DNA from: Paracoccaceae bacterium
GTDB taxonomy: Bacteria; Pseudomonadota; Alphaproteobacteria; Rhodobacterales; Rhodobacteraceae
Assembly (NCBI GenBank): GCA_030697175.1
Contig: JAUYQR010000022.1
Span: 1-64,000, forward strand
Length of the DNA: 64,000 nucleotides
Direction: 5' to 3'
The notes under the pieces were generated by a model. The model was given only the letters and a program-made list of their open reading frames with translations. It ran no database searches and was not told the DNA's origin. The position numbers were made by a program, and so were the translations under genes. Below are positions 15,106 through 24,431 of this stretch, piece after piece. Within the stretch, counting starts at the first letter, position 1. Each line of letters opens with the position of its first letter.

Positions 15106-17073
15106 ATGTTCGACACCGAAGCCTCGGCAGGCAACGCCAGCGCAGCGCGCACCGGCCTGACGCGCCGCATCACCTTGCCCACCCTTGCCACGATTGCCGT
15201 CGTTGCAGGCGTGCTGCATTTCGGTGCGGCGGTGTTTCTGCCGCTGGCCATCGCGACATTGATCAGCTTCGCGCTGTCGCCGCTGGTGTCGGTGTTTCGA
15301 AGGCGCGGCATCGGGCGCACACTTTCGGTGCTGCTGGCGGTCACTATCGCGTTCGGGATTCTGGGCGCGATCCTGTTCTTCATGGGCGGACAGTTGACCC
15401 TTGTCATCGAACAACTGCCGACCTTCCAATCCAACATCATCGCCAAACTGGAGGCGCTGCAAGCAGCTGACGGCCCGTCCGGCGTTCTGGGCCGCTTTGT
15501 CGACATGCTTGCGCGGATCAACGAAGAGATAAGCAGTGCGCTGCCGGCAACGGACGGCAGCACAGGCGCAGCGGGCAACGCTGAACCGATGCAGGTCGCG
15601 GTCGTCGAAACGCAGGATATCTGGCAGGTCATCAACGACATCATCCTGCCGATTATCGCCCCGATCGTGACGGCGGGTCTGGTTGTGGTGGTGGTCATCT
15701 TCATGCTGATCGAACGCGATGACCTGCGGGACCGGTTCATCCGGCTGGTCGGATCGAACGACCTGCACCGGACCACCGAAATCCTGGAAGACGCGGGGTC
15801 ACGGGTGGCGAAGTATCTGCTGATCCAACTGCTTGTGAACACCATTTATGCCATCCCGGTCGGGCTTGGCTTGTGGTTTATCGGCGTTCCGAACCCGGGC
15901 CTCTGGGCGATGATGACACTGGTTCTGCGCTTCGTGCCTTATCTCGGCAGCATCATGGCCGCCGCAATTCCGCTGTTCCTTGCTTTTGCGGTATCGCCGG
16001 ACTGGTCGATGGTGCTGTGGACGGTGGCGCTGTTTGCGACCGTTGAACTGGTGACATCGAATGTCGTGGAGCCGTGGATTTACGGTTCGCGCACCGGGCT
16101 TTCCCCGCTTGCCATCATCATAGCGGCAATCGTGTGGACGTCGATATGGGGTCCGATGGGGCTGATCCTGTCGACGCCGTTGACGGTGTGCCTTGTGGTG
16201 CTGGGCCGCTATCTGCCGCAGTTCGAAGTGTTCGACATCCTCTTTGGCGATGAACCGGTGCTGCGTGCGCATACCCGTTTGTATCAATGGCTGCTGATCG
16301 GCGATGTCGTGGAAGCCACGTCGCGGGCCGAGGAGGAGCTGGAGGAAAGCCACCTGTCTGATTACTACCGTGATGTGGGGATTCCGGCCTTGCTGCTTGC
16401 TCAGGCCGACTACGACCGCGGTGTTCTGTCGGAGGTGCAAGAGGAACGCATCGCCCTTTCGGCGCGAGAGTTTATCGCGGCGCTGGAGCCGGTCGTCGCT
16501 GACCAGTTGCTGCTGGCTGATGCAGAGGGAGAGGTTGAGCCGTCCCCGCAAACGGCGGTGAAGGCGCTGGTTTCGGGCGGGCGCAGTCGGCTGGACGACG
16601 TGGCGGCCGGGATGTTCGGTCAGGCGCTGGCAGTTGATGGAGCCGACGTGACCATAGTTGCCCGCGGCAAACTGAACCACATCGTCCAGAGCGTCCCCGA
16701 GGCGGCCACCGCCAAGGTTGTGATCCTCAATTTTCTTGACCCAACTCCGGCACGGGCGTCCTTGTTGATTGTCCGACGGCTGAAGCGAGCGCTGCCGCAG
16801 CTGCGGGTGGGTGTGGTGATCTGGCAGATGCCCACCGGAATGACCGACGATGGATCAGAGCAGCCGCGCCATCCAAGTGTCGATGCCGCCCTGCGATCCG
16901 CCGAGGAAATCGGAGCCGATTTCGTCGCAACATCGATGGACGACGCGCTGCGGATGGCGCTGGCCGACGATCCGCCCCGCCTTTTGGAAGATGACGGTCG
17001 GCCACGGGCGCGCCGGCGCACCGCGCTGCGGGCGGCTGCCCCGGTCAGGAAGGAACCTCTGGCCGCATCCTGA
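15106..17073 (+). CDS. AI-2E family transporter (PerM-like) with long cytoplasmic C-terminal domain
   Basis: The 655-residue protein has a multi-helix permease core: an N-terminal hydrophobic pair, helices around LIVVVVIFMLIERDDL, then GLWFIGVPNPGLWAMMTLVLRFVPYLGSIMAAAIPLFLAF and IWGPMGLILSTPLTVCLVVLGRY. An unusually long soluble C-terminus of about 250 residues follows (EEELEESHLSDYYRD...). AI-2E exporters are normally about 350 residues, so this is the extended variant; autoinducer-2 transport should not be assumed. I chose ATG 15106 because GGGGAA lies just before it; the frame is open to 15004. The DUF2383 gene follows after 44 bases and is probably co-transcribed. Confidence 0.8.
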   Translation: MFDTEASAGNASAARTGLTRRITLPTLATIAVVAGVLHFGAAVFLPLAIATLISFALSPLVSVFRRRGIGRTLSVLLAVTIAFGILGAILFFMGGQLTLVIEQLPTFQSNIIAKLEALQAADGPSGVLGRFVDMLARINEEISSALPATDGSTGAAGNAEPMQVAVVETQDIWQVINDIILPIIAPIVTAGLVVVVVIFMLIERDDLRDRFIRLVGSNDLHRTTEILEDAGSRVAKYLLIQLLVNTIYAIPVGLGLWFIGVPNPGLWAMMTLVLRFVPYLGSIMAAAIPLFLAFAVSPDWSMVLWTVALFATVELVTSNVVEPWIYGSRTGLSPLAIIIAAIVWTSIWGPMGLILSTPLTVCLVVLGRYLPQFEVFDILFGDEPVLRAHTRLYQWLLIGDVVEATSRAEEELEESHLSDYYRDVGIPALLLAQADYDRGVLSEVQEERIALSAREFIAALEPVVADQLLLADAEGEVEPSPQTAVKALVSGGRSRLDDVAAGMFGQALAVDGADVTIVARGKLNHIVQSVPEAATAKVVILNFLDPTPARASLLIVRRLKRALPQLRVGVVIWQMPTGMTDDGSEQPRHPSVDAALRSAEEIGADFVATSMDDALRMALADDPPRLLEDDGRPRARRRTALRAAAPVRKEPLAAS

Positions 17074-17117
17074 CGTTGTTCCTTCGTGCGCGGTCAACGC
17101 GATCGAAAGGACGAAAG

Positions 17118-17729: not shown

Positions 17730-18650
17730 TTATTGCTGCGGCAGCCCTTCCAGTTCATCTTCCGTCATCTGGACATAGGCCCGCAGCGCACCGCCTTCGG
17801 TTTCCTGAACGATCCGCATCTGCGAAAGGTCCAGTGCAACCGGTTTTTCACCGATCCCAAGGAAACCACCGACATCGACAATGACCTGTGTCGCCTTGCC
17901 GTTGGCATCAAGGACGATGTCCGAGATCTCGCCAACGTCCTCGTCGTTCTGGCCGTAAACGCGAACCCCCATCAACTGGTCGGCGGTCAGGCTGGACGCG
18001 TCCATCTCGGTGCCTGGATTGGCGGCGCCTTCGGTCTCGGCGGCGGTGACATCGTTGGTTGCCGCTGCCGTGTCGTCGGTTGCACCTTCGGTTGCAGCCG
18101 TGGTGGAGCCATCTGTCGCTGCTGCATCGGCACCTTCGGCAGCCATGTCGTCTGCACCTTCGGCTGCGTCAGTCGCAGTGGCGTCGGTCGCGTCGCCGGT
18201 GGTCGAGTCCGTGGCCTCGGTTGCGGCCGCGTCGGTACGCACATACTCCGGTGCGCCTTCAAGAACGGTCCTGTCCGCATTGATGACAAGGAAGAAGTCG
18301 TTCATGTCGTCAGGCGTGGCGCTGTCCGAAACGAAGCGGATGCTTTCCATCGACAAGGCAACCTGGCGTTCGCCGATCCCCAGAAACCCGCCGATGTCGA
18401 TGAGCACTGAATCAACACGCCCGTCACGAGTAAGGATCACATCGTTGATCTCGCCGATATCGTTCCAATCCTGCTGGACACCTTCGATTTCTTCAGCGTC
18501 GACCTGGGCTTCGGCTGCATAGACGCGCTTTCCGATAAAGTCCGAGGCGGTGATAGCGGCCGGATCAATTTCGGTCCGGAACAGATCCTGAGCCGAGGCC
18601 GAGGCGCCAAGCACGAGGGCAACGGCTGTTCCAAGCAAAAGGCTTTTCAT
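17730..18650 (-). CDS. Exported protein with two PRC-barrel domains
   Basis: This 306-residue protein has a Sec signal (MKSLLLGTAVALVLGASASAQ), a first PRC-barrel (VYAAEAQVDAEEIEGVQQDWNDIGEINDVILTRDGRVDSVLIDIGGFLGIGERQVAL), a low-complexity Ala/Thr/Asp/Glu-rich linker of about 90 residues, and a second PRC-barrel (GVRVYGQNDEDVGEISDIVLDANGKATQVIVDVGGFLGIGEKPVAL). The two barrels are clearly a duplication: both hold D-GGFLGIGE. The protein should be periplasmic or surface-associated. A sigma-EcfG-type promoter (18705-18729) lies 55 bases upstream, placing it in the general stress regulon. Its ligand is unknown. Confidence 0.85.
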   Translation of the reverse strand: MKSLLLGTAVALVLGASASAQDLFRTEIDPAAITASDFIGKRVYAAEAQVDAEEIEGVQQDWNDIGEINDVILTRDGRVDSVLIDIGGFLGIGERQVALSMESIRFVSDSATPDDMNDFFLVINADRTVLEGAPEYVRTDAAATEATDSTTGDATDATATDAAEGADDMAAEGADAAATDGSTTAATEGATDDTAAATNDVTAAETEGAANPGTEMDASSLTADQLMGVRVYGQNDEDVGEISDIVLDANGKATQVIVDVGGFLGIGEKPVALDLSQMRIVQETEGGALRAYVQMTEDELEGLPQQ

Positions 18651-18704: not shown

Positions 18705-18729
18705 AACGTGCAATCGGTCGGCCGGTTCC
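18705..18729 (-). promoter_or_regulatory. Sigma-EcfG-type promoter for the PRC-barrel gene
   Basis: On the minus strand GGAAC (18729-18725) and CGTT (18708-18705) are separated by exactly 16 bases, an exact match to the alphaproteobacterial EcfG consensus GGAAC-N16/17-CGTT. The -10 lies 55 bases before the start codon. The remaining gap to 18960 shows no gene. Confidence 0.8.
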
Positions 18730-19015: not shown

Positions 19016-19495
19016 TTACTTCAGGCGGTCGACAACGCCTTGGGCAAAGGCCGCAATCATCGCGTCATAGTAGACGCGGCTGTCGGCCGGAAGGACGGTC
19101 ACATCGACATCAGCCGGAATGAGTGGCAGCGCGGTGTTCACGTCGACGGTCAACTGATAGCTGCCGAACCGCGAATTGTCGGAGGCGTGCGTCATCGACA
19201 CATCGCCAACCAGACGGGTATCCGCAAGTCCGAGTTTCTCCTCGAAACCGTTCGACAGCCAAACCTCTTCGAGGTCGATCTTCAGGTCGATGCCGTCGTC
19301 GGCTATCTGGTCCTCGATCTTGGCAACGATCGCATTTTCAAGATCGTCAGCGATCGAGGTCCAGTATTCAGCGGCGCGGGGGTTTTCGATGGCCGAGAGC
19401 TCGACCGCCACGTCAACGCTTTTGACGGTGGCGGCGGTGCCGGCAGTGGTGAAGGTAAGCGCGGCAAGGCTGCCAAGGGCCAGTGTGCGGAACAT
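19016..19495 (-). CDS. Small exported protein of unknown function, stress-promoter driven
   Basis: I do not recognise the family of this 159-residue protein. It has a clear signal peptide (MFRTLALGSLAALTFTTAGTAA) and a mature part of about 137 residues without cysteines or membrane helices. The mature part opens with VKSVDVAVELSAIENPRAAEYW, contains two acidic helices (LENAIVAKIEDQIADDGIDLKIDLEEV), and ends in a strand-rich region (YQLTVDVNTALPL...DVTVLPADSRVYYDAMIAAFAQGVVDRLK). It is probably periplasmic. An exact EcfG-type promoter (19551-19575) lies 56 bases upstream and an intrinsic terminator follows, so it is a stand-alone member of the general stress regulon beside phyR. Confidence 0.75.
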   Translation of the reverse strand: MFRTLALGSLAALTFTTAGTAATVKSVDVAVELSAIENPRAAEYWTSIADDLENAIVAKIEDQIADDGIDLKIDLEEVWLSNGFEEKLGLADTRLVGDVSMTHASDNSRFGSYQLTVDVNTALPLIPADVDVTVLPADSRVYYDAMIAAFAQGVVDRLK

Positions 19496-19550: not shown

Positions 19551-19575
19551 AACGCGCCCGCATCATTCCGGTTCC
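19551..19575 (-). promoter_or_regulatory. Sigma-EcfG-type promoter for the small exported protein
   Basis: Minus-strand GGAAC (19575-19571) and CGTT (19554-19551) are spaced by 16 bases, an exact consensus match, 56 bases before the start codon at 19495. Confidence 0.8.
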
Positions 19576-19627: not shown

Positions 19628-20437
19628 TCAGGCATTCAGCGTTTCGGTGCTGGCGAAGAACATTGCCTGCGACACCGCCGAGCGTACCTGATCTTCCGCG
19701 TAGGGCTTGGTAATGAGAAATGCAGGCTCTGGCCGCTCACCGGTGAGCAGGCGTTCGGGGAAGGCGGTGATGAAGATCACCGGCGTGTCACCCGTCATCT
19801 TCAAAATGTCATTGACCGCGTCGATCCCCGACGAGCGATCGGCAAGCTGAATATCGGCCAGAATCAGATCGGGGCGTTCACGTCGTGCAAGTTCCACCGC
19901 TTCGCTGCGCGTGGCTGCGATACCGGTCACGTCATGTCCCATTTCCCGAACGATGGCAGCGATGTCCATCGAGATGATCGCCTCATCCTCGATGATCATC
20001 ACCCGGCCCGAGACCGAGGAATGCATCTCCCGCACGGCCGTCTCGATCAGATGCACGACATCATCCTGATCGGTTTGCATGATCTGAGCAATCTCGCCCA
20101 CGTCGAAACCTTCGATGGCATGCAACAGCATCGCCTCGCGGGTGTTCGGCGTCAGGTGGGCCATGTGAGCCTGTGCTGTCGCGGACAGCCGGGTATCGGC
20201 TTCGCCAACGGGCGCCCCGGCGCTGGACCAGACAAGATGAAACGCATGGAACAGGCCGACCTTGGGTTCCAGGTCTGGCGCCAGCGCGGCGCTGTCGGCC
20301 AGAATAGCCTCCAGTGTGGCGGCGGCGTAGCTGTCGCCAGTGGTTTGGCTTCCCGTCAAGGCGCGGGCGTACCGGCGCAAATAGGGCAGGTTGTGCGTGA
20401 TTGCCGTGACAGACGGCTGCAGAGCCCGGGCTTGCAT
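19628..20437 (-). CDS. phyR: General stress response anti-anti-sigma regulator PhyR
   Basis: The 269-residue protein has the PhyR layout. The N-terminal sigma-factor-like domain (residues about 1-137) includes an SL4-like region, LTPNTREAMLLHAIEGFDVGEIAQIMQTDQDDVVHLI. The C-terminal receiver (about 143-260) includes VMIIEDEAIISMDI, the phospho-acceptor Asp in PDLILADIQLAD, and the conserved FITAFPE and TKPY positions. When phosphorylated, PhyR sequesters NepR and frees the EcfG sigma factor. A GGGAG ribosome site lies about 11 bases before the ATG. It is transcribed away from nepR through an interleaved EcfG-type promoter, giving positive feedback. Confidence 0.95.
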   Translation of the reverse strand: MQARALQPSVTAITHNLPYLRRYARALTGSQTTGDSYAAATLEAILADSAALAPDLEPKVGLFHAFHLVWSSAGAPVGEADTRLSATAQAHMAHLTPNTREAMLLHAIEGFDVGEIAQIMQTDQDDVVHLIETAVREMHSSVSGRVMIIEDEAIISMDIAAIVREMGHDVTGIAATRSEAVELARRERPDLILADIQLADRSSGIDAVNDILKMTGDTPVIFITAFPERLLTGERPEPAFLITKPYAEDQVRSAVSQAMFFASTETLNA

Positions 20438-20467
20438 CGATTATTTTACTCCCAATCAAACTGTCCC

Positions 20468-20493
20468 GGAACCAAACGCATTGGTGCGACGTT
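20468..20493 (+). promoter_or_regulatory. Sigma-EcfG-type promoter for nepR (interleaved)
   Basis: Plus-strand GGAAC (20468-20472) and CGTT (20490-20493) with exactly 17 bases between. Transcription should start close to 20500, which favours the nepR start at 20528 over the in-frame ATG at 20501. Confidence 0.85.
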
Positions 20494-20500
20494 TGGTTCC
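20475..20500 (-). promoter_or_regulatory. Sigma-EcfG-type promoter for phyR (interleaved)
   Basis: Minus-strand GGAAC (20500-20496) and CGTT (20478-20475) with exactly 17 bases between. It interleaves with the nepR promoter on the opposite strand: GGAACCAAACG and its complement form an 11-bp inverted repeat at 20468-20500, so each strand's -35 overlaps the other's -10 region. Confidence 0.85.
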
Positions 20501-20527
20501 ATGATAAAGAGGCGGGCAGAAACAAAG

Positions 20528-20713
20528 ATGTATGCGGACGTGGTGGACAGCAATCCCAAAAACCGGATGCGTCTTCAGATCGACGAGAACCTGAAACGCA
20601 TTTATGGTGAGACCCTGAGCGAGCCTGTCCCTGACAGACTTATGTCTTTGCTTGAAGAATTGCGCAAGAAGGCGGCGGCCACAGATGCCGATGACCCTGC
20701 GGATCTTCCGTGA
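20528..20713 (+). CDS. nepR: Anti-sigma factor NepR
   Basis: This 61-residue protein has the NepR core RMRLQIDENLKRIYGETLSEPVPDRLMSLLEELR, the two-helix segment that binds either EcfG or phosphorylated PhyR, with short disordered ends. I chose the ATG at 20528; an in-frame ATG at 20501 would add nine residues but lies almost at the predicted transcription start. In most alphaproteobacteria nepR is followed by ecfG. Here the next gene, 45 bases on, is a HisKA_2 histidine kinase, so the cognate sigma factor must be encoded elsewhere. Confidence 0.93.
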   Translation: MYADVVDSNPKNRMRLQIDENLKRIYGETLSEPVPDRLMSLLEELRKKAAATDADDPADLP

Positions 20714-20758
20714 AGAAAGCCGCCGCTGATGGCGTGATCTCGCCCGGAGTAGGCGCGC

Positions 20759-22546
20759 ATGACCGGCGGTGAGCGCAGGCCAGTTGCCTCGCGCCTGGCC
20801 ATCCGCTTTGCAATTATCCTGGCCCTGGCGCTGCTTCCGGCAGGCGTCATAGCATTCATCAAGACTGATGCCCTGGAAAGCGAGGTCGAAGCGCGCAACG
20901 AGGCAGCGTTGATGGGGGCCACGGTGCAGGCCGCGATGGCCGAGACGGGCCTGATACGGCGCGTCCGCGGCATGGTGGCCAGCCTGTCGCATCTGACGCC
21001 GACTGTGATCAACGACCCGGCAGCCTGTAGCGAGTTGATGCGGGGTGTAGCCGAGGAAGAACCTACCGCGTCCCTGGTTGCGTTCGTACCTGTATCGGGG
21101 GTTATGACCTGCTCTTCGGCGGGGCGCACCTACGCCTTTTCCGGCAACCCGCTCTTTGAAAAGGTGGTCCGGCTGCGCGAACCGGGCTTCGTGGTGAACC
21201 CCCGCGGGCCGGTATCGGGCACGTCGGTCCTTGGTATCTCGCATCCCGTGCTGGGCGCAGCCGGCGATTTTATGGGCTATGTTGTGGTGTCGCTGTCGCA
21301 CAACGCCCTCAACGAGCTTCGGCTGGATACCTTCGACAGCACCCACGGCAGCACGGCCGCACCAGTAGAATTCTGGACCTTCGACCGGGACGGAACCTTG
21401 CTTACCTCGAACCTTGACCTCGCTGCCGCCGCAAAGCGGGTTCCCGCCTCACGACCGTTGGCGGAGTTTGTCGGAACGGGATCGACGGTGGTTCAGGATA
21501 CGTCACGCGATGGGCAGAAGATGAGCTATGCCATCGTGCCGATCGTTCCCGGCGACCTTTACCTGATGAGCGCATTTCGGCGTGAACTGACCGACGTCGG
21601 TGGCGGCCTTTCCGCCTATATGCCCACTCTTCTGATGTGGCTGATCGGGTTGGTTGCCGCCGGTCTGGCGGCCGAGTTTCTGGTGACACGGCATGTCCGC
21701 ACGCTGAACCGCGCCATTGTGAGCTTTGCGCGTGGCGACCGCCGCCTGCAGGCCATCGACCTTGATAATGCCCCGGTGGAACTGCAAGAACTGGCCTCGG
21801 CCTATACCGCGATGACCGAAAGCATCACGCGAAGCGAAGCCGAACTGGAAGATTCGGTGCATCAGAAAGAAGTGTTGCTGCGCGAGGTGCATCATCGCGT
21901 GAAGAACAACCTTCAGCTGATTTCGTCGATCATGAACATCCAGTTGCGCAGCGCCGAAAGCGCCGAGGCCAAGACGCTGCTGCGCAACCTGCAAGAGCGG
22001 ATCATGTCACTGGCCACAGTGCATCGCGGGCTTTACCAGACCAGCGGGCTTGCCGATGTCAGGGCGCGCGAGTTGATCCCGGATATCCTTCGCCAGATCA
22101 CCTCGATCTCCTCCGGGCCGGAAAAACCCTTCGTCACCGAAACCGACATCGACGATCTGCGGTTGGTTCCGGATCAGGCCATCCCGCTGTCCTTATTGCT
22201 GGCCGAGGCGTTGACCAACGCGATGAAGCACGCCGGTGCCACGCGAGACAGGCCCGGCAAGCTGCGAGTGCGCCTGAAACGGTCTGGCGGCAGTGAAGCG
22301 ATATTGCAGGTCAGCAACAGCCGCCCCGATGTATCCATGCGTGCGCGTATCCCCGCCTCCAGCACCGGGATCGGCACGCAACTGATCATGGCCTTCGTCC
22401 AGCAACTGGGCGGCCGCACCGACTCGGGCGAGGATGACGCCGAATATCACATGCGCGTCACGTTCCCCGTCTCGCCCCTCGTAACGGCCGAGAACCGGGA
22501 ACGAAACGAGGCTTCCTCCGATAAGCTTGGGAACGATCCGGTGTGA
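20759..22546 (+). CDS. Membrane histidine kinase, HisKA_2 (HWE-related) type, likely PhyR kinase
   Basis: The 595-residue protein has an N-terminal membrane helix (about 15-33), a periplasmic sensory domain (about 34-280), and a second helix (about 285-305, TLLMWLIGLVAAGLAAEFLV). A HAMP-like linker, the phosphorylation motif LLREVHHRVKNNLQLISSIMN (near residue 375) and a C-terminal ATPase domain (LLAEALTNAMKHA; STGIGTQLIMAF) follow. HisKA_2/HWE kinases are the usual phosphodonors for PhyR, and the position next to nepR makes this the likely input of the local general stress response. The periplasmic region looks like a Cache-type sensor; its signal is unknown. Confidence 0.88.
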   Translation: MTGGERRPVASRLAIRFAIILALALLPAGVIAFIKTDALESEVEARNEAALMGATVQAAMAETGLIRRVRGMVASLSHLTPTVINDPAACSELMRGVAEEEPTASLVAFVPVSGVMTCSSAGRTYAFSGNPLFEKVVRLREPGFVVNPRGPVSGTSVLGISHPVLGAAGDFMGYVVVSLSHNALNELRLDTFDSTHGSTAAPVEFWTFDRDGTLLTSNLDLAAAAKRVPASRPLAEFVGTGSTVVQDTSRDGQKMSYAIVPIVPGDLYLMSAFRRELTDVGGGLSAYMPTLLMWLIGLVAAGLAAEFLVTRHVRTLNRAIVSFARGDRRLQAIDLDNAPVELQELASAYTAMTESITRSEAELEDSVHQKEVLLREVHHRVKNNLQLISSIMNIQLRSAESAEAKTLLRNLQERIMSLATVHRGLYQTSGLADVRARELIPDILRQITSISSGPEKPFVTETDIDDLRLVPDQAIPLSLLLAEALTNAMKHAGATRDRPGKLRVRLKRSGGSEAILQVSNSRPDVSMRARIPASSTGIGTQLIMAFVQQLGGRTDSGEDDAEYHMRVTFPVSPLVTAENRERNEASSDKLGNDPV

Positions 22547-22591
22547 TCAGGCGTTTGCCCCATGTGCCTGAAACCAGATCGAGAGTGCGAA

Positions 22592-24233: not shown

Positions 24234-24431
24234 ATGAATTGGGATCAGATCGAAGGCAAGTGGAAGCAGTACGCCGGCAAGGCAAAGGAAGCCTGGGGCG
24301 ACCTTACTGATGACGACCTTGACCGCGCTGCCGGCAAGCGTGACCAGATGATCGGCCTCGTGCAGGAAAAGTACGGCAAGACCAAAAATGATGCCGAGCG
24401 CGAGGTCGACGACTGGTTCCGCCGGCTCTGA
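24234..24431 (+). CDS. CsbD-family stress protein
   Basis: The 65-residue protein matches the CsbD family along its length: MNWDQIEGKWKQYAGKAKEAWGDLTDDDL, a GKRDQMIGLVQEKYGKTK segment, and the end DAEREVDDWFRRL. These are small, acidic, helical cytoplasmic proteins strongly induced by general stress in many bacteria; the molecular role is unknown. AAGGAG lies seven bases before the ATG. A near-consensus EcfG promoter precedes it. Confidence 0.92.
   Translation: MNWDQIEGKWKQYAGKAKEAWGDLTDDDLDRAAGKRDQMIGLVQEKYGKTKNDAEREVDDWFRRL

Follow-up and report, generated by a model that had tools for sequence, protein, structure and literature searches.

A candidate interleaved bidirectional EcfG-type promoter between phyR and nepR in Rhodobacteraceae

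The most frequent arrangement in Alphaproteobacteria is divergent transcription of phyR and nepR-ecfG, dependent on EcfG in both directions (PMC4814048). For rsiA1 and rsiB1 of S. meliloti, transcription starts have been mapped, each of them behind an RpoE2 promoter (PMC3616915). The locus described here resembles these divergent promoters in its genes, its sigma class, the GGAAC-N16-17-CGTT motif and two-way autoregulation (PMC4814048, PMC3616915). It differs from them in layout: outside the family the divergent promoters mostly lie back to back (15 of 41 loci), whereas here they face each other and are interleaved. Literature searches of open-licence papers found no prior report of overlapping, palindromic or interleaved phyR/nepR promoters.

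In the bidirectional promoters that Warman and colleagues described from E. coli and other prokaryotes (PMC12825309), a short, pseudo-symmetric stretch likewise fires outward in both directions. At these E. coli promoters, opposing polymerases exclude each other. Basal activity is too weak for competition, which sets in only once one of the directions has been strongly activated (PMC12825309). The promoters of that study are sigma-70 promoters with one shared -10, and the distance between their starts is commonly 10, 18 or 23 bp. The element described here has two complete ECF promoters with no shared element, predicted starts ~33 bp apart, and each -10 placed between the boxes of the other promoter. 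Its two -10 boxes lie apart, at 20475-20478 and 20490-20493, and do not form a shared -10 in the sense of PMC12825309. The element would work like a bidirectional promoter but is outside the shared -10 class.

The R. sphaeroides locus RSP_1274-RSP_1271 is a further relative, known here from passages of PMC5830050. Its order, phyR / nepR-ecfG-kinase, holds in Cereibacter loci, and the exact element was present in five of five genomes searched from a Cereibacter-like genus. We infer that this is the genus of R. sphaeroides from the presence of the same elements in Cereibacter loci L003, L004 and L007. In the R. sphaeroides locus given by those passages ecfG follows nepR, whereas the locus studied here is without ecfG. 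The passages of PMC5830050 on the R. sphaeroides locus contain no description of promoter overlap.

The 33-base element and its genes

The window is the whole 64,000-nucleotide stretch of DNA that was analysed. Direct reading of the gap between phyR (- strand) and nepR (+ strand) gave GGAACCAAACG-N11-CGTTTGGTTCC at positions 20468-20500. The left arm, GGAACCAAACG (20468-20478), and the right arm, CGTTTGGTTCC (20490-20500), form a perfect inverted repeat of 11 bp around an 11-base centre, CATTGGTGCGA (20479-20489). Pattern searching located exact GGAAC-N17-CGTT matches on both strands, at 20468-20493 (+) and 20500-20475 (-). The first-pass annotation had described an 11-bp inverted repeat with an 11-base spacer and an exact GGAAC-N17-CGTT promoter on each strand within the same 33 bases; direct reading bore out the former and the pattern search the latter.

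The promoter directed at nepR has its -35 box, GGAAC, at 20468-20472 (+) and its -10 box, CGTT, at 20490-20493 (+). The promoter directed at phyR has its GGAAC -35 box at 20496-20500 (-) and its CGTT -10 box at 20475-20478 (-). All four boxes were assigned by pattern search and family conservation. The two promoters are head-on and interleaved with a stagger of 7 bp, and both their symmetry and their full overlap were seen in the sequence read and the pattern search. On each strand the elements are those of an EcfG (ECF15) promoter, namely a GGAAC -35 box, a CGTT (or GGTT) -10 box and a spacer of 16-17, here 17. Positions 20468-20500 were annotated, without a strand, as an interleaved bidirectional EcfG-type promoter on the basis of the exact pair and its conservation in the family. 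Promoter elements (GGAAC and AACG, the complement of CGTT) make up 9 of the 11 arm bases, and 2 bp (CA) are extra. The inverted repeat is therefore mostly a consequence of head-on promoters with a 7-bp stagger, and it is no independent evidence for a dyad.

The phyR gene (19628-20437, - strand) encodes a response regulator and anti-anti-sigma factor of 269 aa. Its product matched PF22029 (4.9e-25), NF006623 (358.6 bits against a cut-off of 240), PF22233 and PF00072. The anti-sigma factor gene nepR (20528-20713, + strand) was identified by PF18557 (1.6e-13). When in-frame starts were compared, a nepR start near 20528-20540, with a leader of about 27-40 nt, agreed with most relatives. A further in-frame ATG at 20501 would leave nepR nearly leaderless; this start is possible but was not adopted, as most relatives begin 24-44 nt downstream of the repeat. 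A PhyK-like HisKA_2/HWE sensor kinase gene (20759-22546, + strand; PF07568 2e-22, PF07536) scored 224.9 bits against NF051872, under the cut-off of 750, and is probably co-transcribed with nepR.

Wherever the flanking sequence of a relative was long enough to tell, ecfG was in the nepR operon position. It is absent from the phyR locus of the window (20713-20759), unlike in all relatives examined, and for this reason the kinase gene lies directly 3' of nepR. EcfG is encoded elsewhere in the genome, on contig C14 (locus L094, 186000-204000) at about 190.8-193.4 kb, with a second NepR in front and an HWE/HisKA_2 kinase behind. This EcfG has 187 aa and 60-63% identity to EcfG of relatives, and its gene has its own GGAAC-N17-CGTT site. 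A second ecfG-like gene lies ~9 kb beyond the nepR2-ecfG-kinase group, and an exact EcfG-type site was found upstream of each. The genome encodes EcfG and a NepR/PhyR partner switch, with EcfG and NepR on C14 and PhyR and NepR in the window. The interleaved promoter is retained in this genome though it no longer drives ecfG.

The window contains 7 single GGAAC-N15-19-CGTT sites, where 2.7 would be expected. Further such sites lie at 17052-17077 (+), 18705-18729 (-), 19551-19575 (-) and 22530-22555 (+). The genes just behind them are a DUF2383 gene (17118), a PRC-barrel gene (17730-18650), the gene at 19016-19495 and a phospholipase-D-like gene (22562). Having such sites upstream of these genes gives the area the look of a cluster of general-stress genes. 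A small ORF at about 24234-24431 (+), reading MNWDQIEGKWKQYAGKAKEAWGD..., resembles by eye CsbD, a frequent general stress protein.

Conservation and distribution of the promoter pair

Eighty phyR loci and 56 family loci from genome searches were examined; the one-per-genus set includes a few second phyR copies of the same genome. With at most one mismatch per promoter, the interleaved pair was found at 48 of the 56 one-per-genus phyR loci of the family and, among 130 non-redundant loci, at 112, of which 63 have it in exact form. In a first-order Markov control the count was 0 of 2600. Across 114 family loci, one of 228 -35 boxes deviated from GGAAC. The -10 box read CGTT in 87 of the 114 loci in the phyR direction and in 82 in the nepR direction, where most others read A/T/GGTT, and departures in this set fell mostly at the first base. 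Constraint was about equal in both directions (28 vs 32 loci with one mismatch). The centre of the repeat was unconserved in the same 114 loci. Spacers were 16-17 in both directions in 109 of the 114 pairs, with 12-22 allowed, and the combinations observed were 16/16, 17/17 and 16/17. Offset-2 'pairs' from a looser scan were discarded, because GGAAC and CGTT share AAC/GTT and any promoter thus has a weak mirror image at offset 2.

Judged from the sequence and its conservation, both promoters exist, and are under constraint, on the same DNA. A bidirectional EcfG promoter for phyR and nepR, as first proposed for this gap, is well supported at the sequence level, since both -35/-10 sets are conserved in the family with 16-17 spacing on both strands.

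Common as single GGAAC-N15-19-CGTT sites are (143 in the 3.67-Mb genome), the exact interleaved pair occurs in that genome at one place. A reversed-pattern control gave 0 matches in the genome and 0 in 120 family genomes. Among these 120 genomes, taken one per genus, 22 have the exact pair, each at a single place and always in the phyR-nepR gap. For 21 of the 22 places, phyR coordinates showed that phyR is adjacent; the last one is on a contig that is broken, again with nepR on one side and the start of phyR on the other. Class-wide, among 385 genomes, the exact pair was found in this genome and one other only. That other genome (G205; locus L095, 3621-4160) is outside the family, and its EcfG pair, interleaved and exact, sits where a response-regulator gene with a receiver domain begins; this gene is not phyR, and the match was set aside.

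The 41 phyR loci of other families comprised 15 back-to-back loci, with -35 boxes 6-47 bp apart, and four interleaved loci; the rest had one promoter, none or a distant pair. Three of the four interleaved loci belong to one genus and have a CATT -10 box for phyR. Loci L178, L182 and L185 of family f42 are interleaved with a 6-bp stagger, a CATT phyR -10 and a G-rich/C-rich centre, and the f42 pair is possibly of independent origin.

On a PhyR tree, which is a quick tree with weak deep branches, the Rhodobacteraceae-type clade is interleaved throughout except for some losses, and the layout changes state eight times in all. The losses fall in the second Rubellimicrobium copy, in the Oceanicola/Histidinibacterium group and in single species. 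The simplest reading is a single gain of the layout at the base of the family. In Rubellimicrobium, the second PhyR lineage (L043, L048, L052, L056, L061, L071 and L073) has mostly lost the interleaved pair, and the other (L057, L059 and L070) retains it. The two lineages are a natural comparison, in some species inside one genome.

Shared use of the site and competing readings

We consider it likely that the element is a compact bidirectional promoter, whose interleaved EcfG promoters give co-induction and, at high activity, competition with a fixed ratio and capped output. One EcfG (ECF15-type) promoter would fire phyR, and the other would fire nepR and the kinase gene behind it. RNA polymerase-EcfG would bind 20468-20500 in one orientation at a time. 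Starts ~7 bases past each -10 box would lie near 20467 for phyR and near 20500 for nepR, ~33 bp apart, and each predicted start would fall on the -35 box of the opposite promoter. Upon EcfG release, phyR and nepR would be induced together. While EcfG activity is low, the directions would barely interfere. At high activity, competition for one site would make phyR and nepR initiate in proportion to the two association rates; this ratio would be constant whatever the EcfG level, and total output would be capped.

The two arrangements were compared in a minimal model with arbitrary parameters, of which the qualitative result alone counts: over a 10,000-fold range of sigma the P/N (phyR:nepR) ratio was constant at 0.50 with a shared site and drifted from 0.50 to 0.33 with independent promoters. 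A fixed ratio would suit partner proteins that bind one another; the arrangement would not act as an either/or switch.

Transcript data from R. sphaeroides conflict with simple co-induction. As reported in the passages of PMC5830050 on that species, phyR mRNA rises 2-3 fold with singlet oxygen, superoxide and diamide and not with membrane stress; ecfG mRNA rises with membrane stress only, and PhyR is required. This stress pattern, as far as those passages give it, implies an additional promoter for phyR, control at the mRNA level or genuine competition.

It is quite possible, if somewhat short of probable, that the EcfG promoters happen to overlap and are too low in activity for interference, so that there is no functional competition. 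E. coli bidirectional promoters do not compete at basal activity (PMC12825309), and the layout appears to go back to a single gain in the ancestry of the family. The stagger is also self-locking, because any central indel alters both spacers together, and the variants observed (16/16, 17/17 and 16/17) are exactly the ones in which neither spacer leaves the permitted length. The fixed stagger may thus be a frozen accident. However, the back-to-back layout works elsewhere in the class (15 of 41 loci), yet the family kept interleaving with few losses, and -35 boxes near invariant on both strands suggest strong promoters.

The first-pass annotation went further and suggested that phyR and nepR transcription may be mutually exclusive. 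Its premise, that two polymerases cannot sit there together, agrees with the geometry of two promoters on 33 bp and with the same steric rule in E. coli (PMC12825309). A switch in which the two genes are transcribed alternately and cells are biased to either would build on this steric impossibility, and the different stresses to which phyR and ecfG mRNAs answer in the R. sphaeroides passages (PMC5830050) would fit it. Such a switch is nevertheless improbable. The same sigma factor is needed in both directions, the promoter itself is without a bistable element, and the mRNA correlation in the model was weakly negative at constant sigma (at most about -0.15) and positive with pulsing sigma (+0.34 to +0.80). 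Mutual exclusion is valid only in the sense that one DNA copy cannot be occupied by both polymerases at once; as a regulatory outcome it is opposed by the common sigma factor, the E. coli data and the model. The annotation's built-in balance survives as a constant initiation ratio with a capped total, and falls as mutual exclusion.

An operator for a dimeric regulator, with the promoter match secondary, is very unlikely. It would account for the perfect 11-bp inverted repeat and for agreement of the arms at non-promoter positions in 37 of 80 loci, against 29.7 under shuffled pairing (p 0.02, uncorrected for relatedness). The two arm positions that neither promoter needs, however, differ between the arms in the other 43 of the 80 loci. 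Across family loci repeat length varies over 31-33 and arm length over 10-12 while the EcfG spacers stay at 16-17. Dyad symmetry and half-site spacing are therefore not conserved across relatives as in a dimeric operator, and the conserved quantity is promoter spacing and not dyad geometry.

An RNA hairpin (attenuator or terminator) is extremely unlikely: the arms could pair if transcribed through, but the predicted starts are the outer repeat ends in both directions, so neither mRNA would contain both arms, and the sequence has no T run. Chance coincidence of two common motifs has a negligible probability despite the abundance of single sites, and is already refuted by conservation of the pair at most family loci against none in the control and by its one place per genome.

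A shared polymerase site for a partner switch

The preferred reading remains the compact bidirectional promoter, in which phyR and nepR probably share one polymerase landing site. The family would thereby offer a clean, family-wide natural case of a sigma factor's brake and its brake-release being expressed from a single binding site for polymerase. In sister groups, the same genes and motifs occur without overlap of the promoters, so steric competition as a means of setting stoichiometry can be tested by comparing or swapping layouts. More tentatively, and with some doubt, head-on interleaving in Rhodobacteraceae may be a ratio lock, which would fix the anti-sigma:anti-anti-sigma transcription ratio, cap the total and keep the partner switch responsive. 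If this is true, Alphaproteobacteria with back-to-back promoters would be without such a lock.
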